Part shown: one piece after another, positions 47,323 through 49,605 of the stretch
How positions within the stretch are numbered: position 1 is the stretch's first letter
How the letters are laid out: every line of letters begins with the position of its first letter
From: Synechococcus elongatus PCC 11801
GTDB taxonomy: Bacteria > Cyanobacteriota > Cyanobacteriia > Synechococcales > Synechococcaceae
Direction of reading: 5' to 3'
Length of the DNA: 64,000 nt
Assembly: GCF_003846445.2 (NCBI RefSeq)
Contig: NZ_CP030139.2
Location: forward strand, 2,531,501 to 2,595,500
Position numbers and translations under genes: made by a program
Notes under the pieces: model-generated
The model's database searches: none
What the model was told of the DNA's origin: nothing
The model's input: the letters and a program-made list of their open reading frames with translations, nothing else

Positions 47323-47907
47323 GTGCCCCTCAGCGATCGCGCCCGCCAACTCTTACCCCAAGCTCGCCTGACTAACTTTCAGTCTTGGCAAGCCGAGATT
47401 TCGGCGGAGCTGCTGACGCGCTTCCAAGCGGCTGAGGATGAGCAGCGCTTTCTCAGTGATGCCGATTTAGTTGCGATCGCCTTAGCCTGCCTCCCCAATG
47501 CCAACCCAACGGCAGCCCGATTTCTGCGCGATGACGCCGAGGAATTGATCGCGATCGCCCGCGCTGATTTGCTTGAGCGTTTTCCGGGCATCACGGAACC
47601 GGGTGGGGCGCTCTACCCCGAGGTGCGATCGCAGTCTTGCTGGCGCGATTGCTGGCAGTTTTTGCGCTGCCTTAGCTACGGCGTGGCAGCAGGACGAGCC
47701 GACTATGCCACACCTGCAGGCTTTGAAGCTTTGGCGGTGGTTTACGAAGAATTAGAAGTACCGATCGCAGCGATGCAACAGGCGATCGAAACGCTACTAG
47801 GCGTTGCACTGAAGCGATTTCCACCGGAAGTGCAAGCGCAACTTCAGCCCTGTTGTGCAACACTCCAAACCGGTATTCAAGCGATCGCAATAACCCTAAG
47901 CACATAA
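47323..47907 (+). CDS. Orphan phycobilisome-domain (phycobiliprotein-fold) protein
   Basis: 194 residues from GTG 47323. The central part, LYPEVRSQSCWRDCWQFLR followed by CLSYGVAAGRADYATP, aligns with the region around the bilin-binding Cys-84 of phycocyanin and allophycocyanin (CxRDxxxxLRxxxYxxxxGD). Cys106, Arg108 and Asp109 match the Cys, Arg and Asp that hold and position the bilin. The start and end are divergent from antenna subunits and it is longer than they are. No partner subunit is next to it. It may bind a bilin or be a phycobilisome-related regulatory or chaperone protein. Last gene before the AT-rich island. Confidence 0.78.
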   Translation: MPLSDRARQLLPQARLTNFQSWQAEISAELLTRFQAAEDEQRFLSDADLVAIALACLPNANPTAARFLRDDAEELIAIARADLLERFPGITEPGGALYPEVRSQSCWRDCWQFLRCLSYGVAAGRADYATPAGFEALAVVYEELEVPIAAMQQAIETLLGVALKRFPPEVQAQLQPCCATLQTGIQAIAITLST

Positions 47908-48065: not shown

Positions 48066-48893
48066 ATGACGCCTCTATTTAATGTGGGTAGCTATGTTGA
48101 AGAGACCCGTTTTGGTGCGACTCAGCATGACTCTTATCACAATATTTCTGGACGAGGGCAAAGCCGTAGATTAAAACAGGGGCAAATTATTAAACTGACA
48201 CCCAGATTCTTTGTTTCTGGGTTTGATGCACTAATTCAATGGACTGACGGTACTAAAGACTGCAGAGTTGCAGGCCAATATCATCTCAATTTATTACCCG
48301 CTCCAAATCTAAAAAAGAGATTATTAGCTGGCAAATTCGACTGTCTTTACCACATGACTCACATACAAAATTTATCATCAATTCTGGCAAGTGGAATTCT
48401 AAGCAATGCTGAAATCAAAAGAAGAAGAGTCTCAATTGCTGATATTTCTGATTCGTCAGTACAAGCGAGAAGAGATGAGATTGAGCCAATTTACGATCGA
48501 AGTATTCATGAGTATGTTCCTTTTTACTTAAATCCTAAAAATCCAATGCTCTACAGGCGAAAAGAGATGCAAAATGAAATTGTAATCATTGCTGTTTCAA
48601 CGTCTGTTCTCAGTTCTAATTGTCATGTTTTTACTGATGGCAATGCAGCTGCCAATGCCACGCTATTTTCTGATGATGAAAGTGTCATCAACAATTCAAA
48701 AGATGTTCTATGTGCCCAGTACTGGACAGACTATGATGACGGCAAACGTCGTAGATGTGCTGAAGTCTTGGTTTATCCAAGTGTTGGAGTAAAATACATA
48801 GAAAAAATAGCATGTAACAATGAGGCTACTCGTGCACATGTTGCATCAATAACTAATATCCAATCAACCATTGAAAAAGGACTTTACTTCTAA
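48066..48893 (+). CDS. darT: DarT-type DNA ADP-ribosyltransferase toxin with N-terminal extension
   Basis: 275 residues. The DarT core (about residues 92-250, formerly DUF4433) shows LYHMTHIQNLSSILASGIL at its start with conserved His, SNAEIKRRRVSI, YVPFYLNPKNPMLYRRK (NAD-binding loop) and RRCAEVLVYPSV, whose Glu233 fits the catalytic Glu. DarT enzymes attach ADP-ribose to bases in single-stranded DNA, blocking replication, and act in phage defence and growth control. The first about 91 residues are extra relative to typical DarT (about 210 residues) and contain a beta-rich stretch (QGQIIKLTPRFFV, ALIQWTDG, CRVAG). The gene is AT-rich, unlike its neighbours. The darG start is one base after this stop. 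Confidence 0.9.
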   Translation: MTPLFNVGSYVEETRFGATQHDSYHNISGRGQSRRLKQGQIIKLTPRFFVSGFDALIQWTDGTKDCRVAGQYHLNLLPAPNLKKRLLAGKFDCLYHMTHIQNLSSILASGILSNAEIKRRRVSIADISDSSVQARRDEIEPIYDRSIHEYVPFYLNPKNPMLYRRKEMQNEIVIIAVSTSVLSSNCHVFTDGNAAANATLFSDDESVINNSKDVLCAQYWTDYDDGKRRRCAEVLVYPSVGVKYIEKIACNNEATRAHVASITNIQSTIEKGLYF

Positions 48894-48894
48894 G

Positions 48895-49605
48895 ATGCAG
48901 AGCCTGAAAATTTTGAAAGGCAATATTTTTACAACCAATTGCCAAACTCTTGTCAACACTGTCAACTGTGTAGGTGTGATGGGAGCTGGGATTGCTCTAG
49001 AATTTAAGCTTCGATATCCAGATATGGATCAAAAATATATATCTCTTTGCCAACAAGGATTGCTAGACATTGGAAAGTTGTGGATATATAAAACTACTTC
49101 GCGGTGGATTCTCAATTTTCCGACTAAAAAACATTGGAAAAATCCTAGTAAAGAGTCTTATCTACATGCAGGTTTGCAAAAATTTCTTGAAACCTATGAG
49201 GAGAAGGAAATTCACTCAATTGCTTTTCCATTGCTTGGGGCTCAACACGGAGGAATACATCCTGAGAAGTCTTTAGAAATAATGACTTCTTACCTTTCAA
49301 AATGTTCTATCTCTGTTGAGATTTATCAGCATGATCCGCATGCTTATGATGACTTATGCGAACACACTAGAGACTTGTTTTTAACAACACCCATCAACAA
49401 GCTAAAGCTGACTACTGGACTCACCCCTAGCCAGATTAATAAGCTTTCTGGGATTTTCAATGATTCATCTTTTACTCAATTGAATCATCTGACTAAGGTA
49501 AAAGGAATTAGCACTAAGACTTTAGAGAAGGTTTTTGCTTTTGCCATGAAAAACGCCGACAAAAAATATCAAGATGAACAGCAGAAGCTATCACTTCACG
49601 TATAG
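48895..49605 (+). CDS. darG: DarG-type macrodomain antitoxin (DNA ADP-ribosylglycohydrolase)
   Basis: 236 residues from ATG 48895; a TTG at 48871 lies inside darT without a ribosome site. The macrodomain (residues 1-155) has LKGNIFTTNCQTLVNTVNCV, VGVMGAGIALEFK, NFPTKKHWKNPS (Lys79 fits the catalytic Lys of DarG) and FPLLGAQHGGI, which bind and remove ADP-ribose from DNA. The tail (160-236) has GLTPSQINKLSGIF and LTKVKGISTKTLEKV, resembling helix-hairpin-helix or HTH elements, and is much shorter than the DarT-binding C-domain of longer DarG proteins. It is adjacent to darT with a one-base gap, implying co-expression. Confidence 0.9.
   Translation: MQSLKILKGNIFTTNCQTLVNTVNCVGVMGAGIALEFKLRYPDMDQKYISLCQQGLLDIGKLWIYKTTSRWILNFPTKKHWKNPSKESYLHAGLQKFLETYEEKEIHSIAFPLLGAQHGGIHPEKSLEIMTSYLSKCSISVEIYQHDPHAYDDLCEHTRDLFLTTPINKLKLTTGLTPSQINKLSGIFNDSSFTQLNHLTKVKGISTKTLEKVFAFAMKNADKKYQDEQQKLSLHV

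Follow-up and report, generated by a model that had tools for sequence, protein, structure and literature searches.

What is a solitary relative of the phycobilisome subunits, still equipped with a bilin-type cysteine, doing in Synechococcus elongatus PCC 11801? The gene in question occupies positions 47323 to 47907 on the forward strand of the window, by which we mean the whole stretch of 64,000 nucleotides that was analysed (positions 2,531,501 to 2,595,500 of contig NZ_CP030139.2). It is an open reading frame with a GTG start that encodes 194 amino acids. An earlier note on this DNA had taken the product for an orphan protein of phycobiliprotein fold that keeps a bilin-type cysteine at residue 106, and had offered two roles for it: a bilin-carrying sensor, or a factor in the assembly or degradation of phycobilisomes. 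In the following, the gene is called apl and its product Apl.

Family and surroundings of the gene

The fold proposed earlier holds. Residues 34-176 of Apl (47422 to 47850, forward strand) match PF00502, the phycobilisome proteins with their globin-like domain, at E=1.3e-28. Which member of this large group is it? None of the curated NCBIfam cut-offs of the named antenna subunits is passed, the best being that of ApcA with 45 bits against a required 270. Among solved structures, allophycocyanin alpha-type chains come closest (best E 5.5e-13), and at this same best value there is no near-identical chain in the PDB, though it includes 9wg7, the phycobilisome of S. elongatus PCC 7942, a structure from which unresolved or rare parts could escape. 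In the matched stretches, Apl is 24-35% identical to the remaining phycobiliproteins of the host and sister genomes, which bears out the strong divergence outside the bilin motif seen by the earlier note. When 16 Apl sequences and 28 antenna subunits are placed in one tree, the Apl proteins form one side of a branch supported at 100/100; the tree is unrooted, drawn with a midpoint, and is mute on whether Apl predates the split of alpha and beta subunits. An N-terminal extension relative to ApcA is found as well. It measures 26-29 residues in 14 of the 16 Apl rows, and 26 in S. elongatus (47323 to 47400, forward strand), while in the other two rows, which are marine-type sequences with unedited ORF starts, it reads 47 and 49.

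A search with the S. elongatus protein found Apl in 105 of 388 genomes of the class at E≤1e-15, and a profile of 30 relatives placed the same 105 genomes on top, the two sets being identical. It is to be noted that at most the best eight candidates per genome were scored in this 105-genome set, so that copies may be missed. The four next-best matches below the Apl set, when fetched, turned out to be allophycocyanin-type sequences with CLRD. Thus, the word orphan suits the position of the gene, which has no partner beside it, but not the family, which is widespread. In a picocyanobacterium-like genome, whose apl locus falls inside the same 100/100 clade, the order of genes is a 143-aa gene of no assigned function, apl, a linker, a pentapeptide protein and a linker. 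In Six et al. (2007; PMC2246261), unk4 precedes aplA, which in turn is followed by cpcGII, and the pentapeptide-repeat gene unk5 generally comes after cpcGII. The two orders agree, and by gene order, then, the clade includes sequences published as aplA. Judged from its sequence, the S. elongatus protein is a member of the known AplA, or allophycocyanin-like, family. The same authors call AplA a photosensor whose function is unknown (PMC2246261).

Upstream of apl are sodB and a CpeT/CpcT-family gene, just as noted before, and downstream is a DarT/DarG pair. PF00502 has 11 matches in the host genome, namely Apl, eight antenna subunit genes (whose names were assigned from their sequences) and two parts of apcE; the ten other than Apl are all elsewhere, far from apl. 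Neither among the neighbours nor among all PF00502 matches of the genome was an alpha or beta partner gene found beside apl, in agreement with the earlier claim. The sister S. elongatus genome, the nearest available, has a 92% identical protein with an intact frame, likewise near sodB and cpcT. Does cpcT then point to a function of its neighbour? CpcT acts on another site, and these surroundings were seen in the two S. elongatus genomes only; therefore, a functional link to cpcT was set aside. A promoter scan found nothing, a terminator scan gave no more than in shuffles, and a PHROGs search gave no match. Concerning the downstream side, apl is separated from the next gene by the DarT/DarG toxin-antitoxin pair, made of overlapping ORFs at 48066-49605 on the forward strand (PADLOC E 8.5e-46 for DarT and 6.1e-51 for DarG). 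In the sister genome, the distance from the end of apl to this next gene is 3 bases (locus L178, 9364/9367), so the pair was either gained here or lost there.

Bilin site, selection and predicted fold

Can Apl still hold a bilin? The motif SQSCWRDCWQFLR (residues 103-115; 47629 to 47667, forward strand) contains Cys106-Trp-Arg108-Asp109, and the codon of Cys106 (47638 to 47640, forward strand) aligns with Cys81 of ApcA. The CxRD motif is common to Apl and all 28 aligned antenna subunits, so that the bilin-type cysteine of the earlier note was correctly recognized. A lack of this cysteine in homologs would have spoken against the note, but the outcome is in its favour: in a profile alignment, Cys106, Arg108, Asp109, Arg115 and Tyr119 are each present in 105 of the 105 Apl-bearing genomes, and Trp107 in 104. 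Two further Apl rows are fragments that end short of the bilin site, and homologs from the contig scan described below were left out of this count because the scan patterns themselves contained the cysteine. Outside the site, six columns whose residue is kept by 80% or more of the 28 antenna rows have other residues in most of the 16 Apl rows (R36, N71, A79, G99, G111 and E114 in ApcA numbering), G99 or E114 being retained in some; these columns were picked by conservation in the antenna rows, not as known positions of alpha-beta contact.

The S. elongatus protein also departs from its own family. Residue 38 is Glu, against Asp in 99 of the 105 rows having a residue there, and residue 110 is Cys, while Phe is found in 74 of 105. 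From these two residues, the function of Apl may have shifted in S. elongatus. As for Cys110 itself, the motif CWRDC occurs in 23 of 105 genomes, being restricted to the 21 family-f2 genomes and the S. elongatus pair (loci L165-L169, L326-L343, L012 and L013), and it places another thiol next to the bilin site. A comparison of apl from the two S. elongatus genomes gives dN 0.048 and dS 0.638 by NG86 (dN/dS about 0.075), and dN 0.057 and dS 0.364 by YN00 (dN/dS 0.16). By these values, purifying selection acts on apl in S. elongatus.

An AlphaFold2 model built from a 30-row alignment has a mean pLDDT of 93.7 over the whole chain. All of the 50 matches listed by Foldseek are phycobiliprotein chains, with TM of 0.55-0.61 by query length and rmsd of 8.4-11.0 Å. 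With VIA-align, at Z about 14, 132-134 residues fit smURFP and a truncated ApcF at 2.2-2.4 Å; both are presumably devoid of the N-terminal helices, as their residue ranges also suggest. Most allophycocyanin alpha chains fit over 143-148 residues at 3.7-4.9 Å; for a designed near-infrared protein, the fit covers 158 residues at 3.5 Å. Beta chains of cryptophyte phycoerythrin fit at 2.5-2.9 Å along 146-149 residues, starting near residue 30, and hence part of the N-terminal region of Apl is not unlike known chains. As a control, ApcA of the same genome was modelled from a 26-row alignment. It lay at 1.9-2.0 Å from its own crystal structure (TM 0.93-0.94) and at 2.2-3.0 Å, over whole chains, from beta-type chains of 29-39% identity; this control is weakened because AlphaFold had probably been trained on ApcA structures. 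In the model, then, the core of Apl is a phycobiliprotein globin fold, onto which whole allophycocyanin chains fitted poorly, and for the N-terminal part a placement unlike that in allophycocyanin is predicted.

How might such a protein work? We consider it reasonably probable that AplA of S. elongatus is a bilin-carrying sensory or regulatory protein outside the antenna, a stand-alone relative of the phycobiliproteins. The host genome has one bilin reductase, so phycocyanobilin is presumably the sole bilin made, and a bilin lyase would attach it to Cys106 through a thioether bond. The four CpeS-family genes of the host could, by their sequences, supply that enzyme; it would probably be one of these four CpeS/CpcS-family proteins or a HEAT-type lyase. 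Arg108 and Asp109 would hold the bilin as they do in antenna proteins. With antenna-conserved positions lost and a different arrangement predicted for its N-terminal part, Apl would not form the standard alpha-beta dimer; it would carry its bilin apart from the phycobilisome and serve there in sensing or regulation. The first of the two roles offered by the earlier note agrees with the description of the family as a non-antenna photosensor in the accessible text of Six et al. (PMC2246261); its second role, to which we return below, is unsupported in S. elongatus.

Phycoerythrin, HEAT-repeat neighbours and rival explanations

In which organisms is Apl found? CpeB of phycoerythrin (NF058508) is present in 115 of the 388 genomes at E≤1e-70. 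Apl and CpeB occur together in 94 genomes, Apl alone in 11, CpeB alone in 21 and neither in 262 (Fisher p 6e-56, for genomes that are not independent of each other). Within 21 genera, compiled by hand and comprising 106 genomes, the corresponding numbers are 51, 5, 5 and 45 (Cochran-Mantel-Haenszel p=1.2e-12). Thus, Apl tracks phycoerythrin throughout the class and also inside genera. The two genes are on one contig in 64 genomes, and are at most 25 kb apart in 55 of these. In the accessible parts of the literature, all PEII-containing marine strains are said to carry aplA (Six et al., 2007, PMC2246261), and aplA occurs in some types of picocyanobacterial pigment cluster (PMC6363710); the later literature found has aplA, in the parts seen, only as a label on picocyanobacterial gene maps. 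No report of a class-wide association with phycoerythrin, of the HEAT neighbour described below or of Apl in S. elongatus was found in a search that covered mainly freely available papers.

The exceptions also deserve a look. Of the 11 genomes with Apl but no CpeB, six show between two and four matches to bilin reductase, some of them partial, and the absence of cpeB from these may come from assembly gaps. The other five (the two S. elongatus genomes, G082, G120 and G272) have one bilin reductase and, as far as their gene content tells, probably make phycocyanobilin alone. Family f2 accounts for eleven of the 21 genomes with CpeB alone, and eight of these eleven are 1.7-1.9 Mb in size. S. elongatus, with Apl and without phycoerythrin, is an exception to the co-occurrence, and together with Glu38 and Cys110 this suggests either a general role that outlived the loss of phycoerythrin or a shifted one.

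The surroundings of apl were compared by a contig scan, in which the best 80 of 229 Apl relatives were used as loci, with stretches of up to 5 kb on each side. A first clustering of neighbours lumped all phycobiliproteins into one cluster. Another phycobilisome-related gene is in the stretch in 50 of these best 80 loci; by type, a bilin reductase is seen in 34, a linker in 31 and CpeT in 16. A pentapeptide-repeat protein is encoded in 30 of the same 80 (L056, L061, L072 and L100, for example), and may correspond to the unk5 described by Six et al. The commonest neighbour is an NblB-like HEAT-repeat protein of about 220 aa. At an identity of at least 45%, it is found in 47 of 79 loci, on the opposite strand in all 47, upstream in 43 and downstream in 4; the eightieth, L114, was dropped from these neighbour counts by the motif filter, though it does encode an Apl, with CWRDFWHFTR. 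Across genomes, a HEAT gene lies within 4 kb of apl in 52 of 105, again always on the opposite strand (52/52). The link between Apl and HEAT rests on this physical linkage: 77 of 84 Apl genomes outside family f2 have the HEAT family, but this count overstates the link, as the threshold of E≤1e-36 admits a second paralog. HEAT matches at the same threshold turn up in 27 genomes that have no Apl. In G108, G251 and G284, no Apl was found beside a HEAT protein (partial in G284) that shares 60-78% identity with an Apl-linked HEAT, which means either assembly gaps or a role of HEAT without Apl. A candidate partner in S. elongatus itself, the HEAT protein G000:C1:1448309, is 47% identical to a linked HEAT, and was rejected because the tree, whose backbone is weakly supported, groups it with unlinked paralogs.

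The usual context of the family is therefore phycobilisome genes and an NblB-like HEAT gene, and apl of S. elongatus lacks this context, which counts against our explanation of the S. elongatus protein. Could Apl rather serve the handling of bilin for phycoerythrin? It would take, carry or report bilin during phycoerythrin maturation, the NblB-like HEAT protein would load or unload it, and the S. elongatus copy would be a survivor from a phycoerythrin-bearing ancestor that now works with phycocyanobilin. We regard this as possible, though clearly less probable than a sensor. The co-occurrence and the physical proximity of apl to cpeB speak for it, and so does the opposite-strand HEAT gene in half of the Apl genomes; the HEAT family is, however, found at E≤1e-36 in none of the 21 Apl genomes of family f2, the best relative in S. 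elongatus groups with unlinked paralogs as mentioned, and a sensor of light colour would yield the same co-occurrence. Stated for the whole family, and equally tentatively, Apl would be a phycoerythrin-coupled sensor or carrier of bilin that has, in many lineages, its own NblB-like HEAT lyase or detachase and is gained and lost with phycoerythrin, S. elongatus keeping a phycoerythrin-free version.

The assembly or degradation of phycobilisomes, the second role in the earlier note, is unlikely, and nothing found in S. elongatus points to it. Apl would bind antenna subunits or linkers and help to build or dismantle the antenna, which would fit the phycobilisome-related genes around apl in those 50 loci and the resemblance of the HEAT neighbour to NblB, a degradation protein. 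According to the accessible text of a review, NblB mediates pigment degradation via chromophore segregation (PMC10254012), and another paper describes it as a CpcE homologue that, as far as the authors know, attaches no chromophores (PMC2327270). But the two Apl-linked HEAT proteins tested reach 87 and 94 bits against an NblB cut-off of 300, which a separate S. elongatus protein passes with 314 bits. Moreover, 262 of 273 CpeB-less genomes have no Apl, yet a phycobiliprotein match is present in 346 of 388 genomes. Finally, that Apl is a degenerate relic of a phycobiliprotein with no present function, as its strong divergence from antenna subunits and the loss of the usual context in S. elongatus might suggest, is very improbable in view of dN far below dS (0.048 against 0.638, NG86), a bilin site kept in all 105 genomes and a frame intact in both S. 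elongatus genomes.

Comparison with known systems

The AplA described by Montgomery et al. in 2004 reportedly has a 28-residue N-terminal extension, kept chromophore residues and changed subunit contacts, and is said to carry a covalent chromophore while being absent from phycobilisomes. The S. elongatus protein is similar in being allophycocyanin-like, in its extension of about that length, in its kept chromophore residues, in changes at positions conserved among antenna subunits, and in its stand-alone gene. It is unlike the AplA family in that its host is without phycoerythrin, in Glu38 and Cys110, and in lying beside sodB and cpcT, not among phycobilisome genes.

S. elongatus offers a tractable, phycoerythrin-free species in which the question of AplA function is testable; if the phycoerythrin-coupled reading is true, S. 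elongatus becomes a simple genetic system for finding the function of the Apl family. Further leads on that function come from the association with phycoerythrin across the class and from the neighbouring HEAT gene. With aplA of marine Synechococcus, as the accessible text of PMC2246261 presents it, the protein shares the 100/100 clade, and Cys110 is common to it and the 21 family-f2 sequences; identity to the marine proteins is only about 30-41%, and the marine genes lie beside rod-region linker and pentapeptide genes. With ApcA and AP-B (ApcD), it shares the core fold and the CxRD bilin site, while its identity to the closest of them is 24-30%, and it differs in having no partner, changed conserved positions, an N-terminal extension and a poorer fit of the whole chain. 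NblB and the HEAT proteins of CpcE/F type resemble not Apl itself but the gene most often beside apl elsewhere, and this Apl-linked HEAT is in turn distinct from NblB, scoring well short of the NblB cut-off and branching apart from NblB in the tree.
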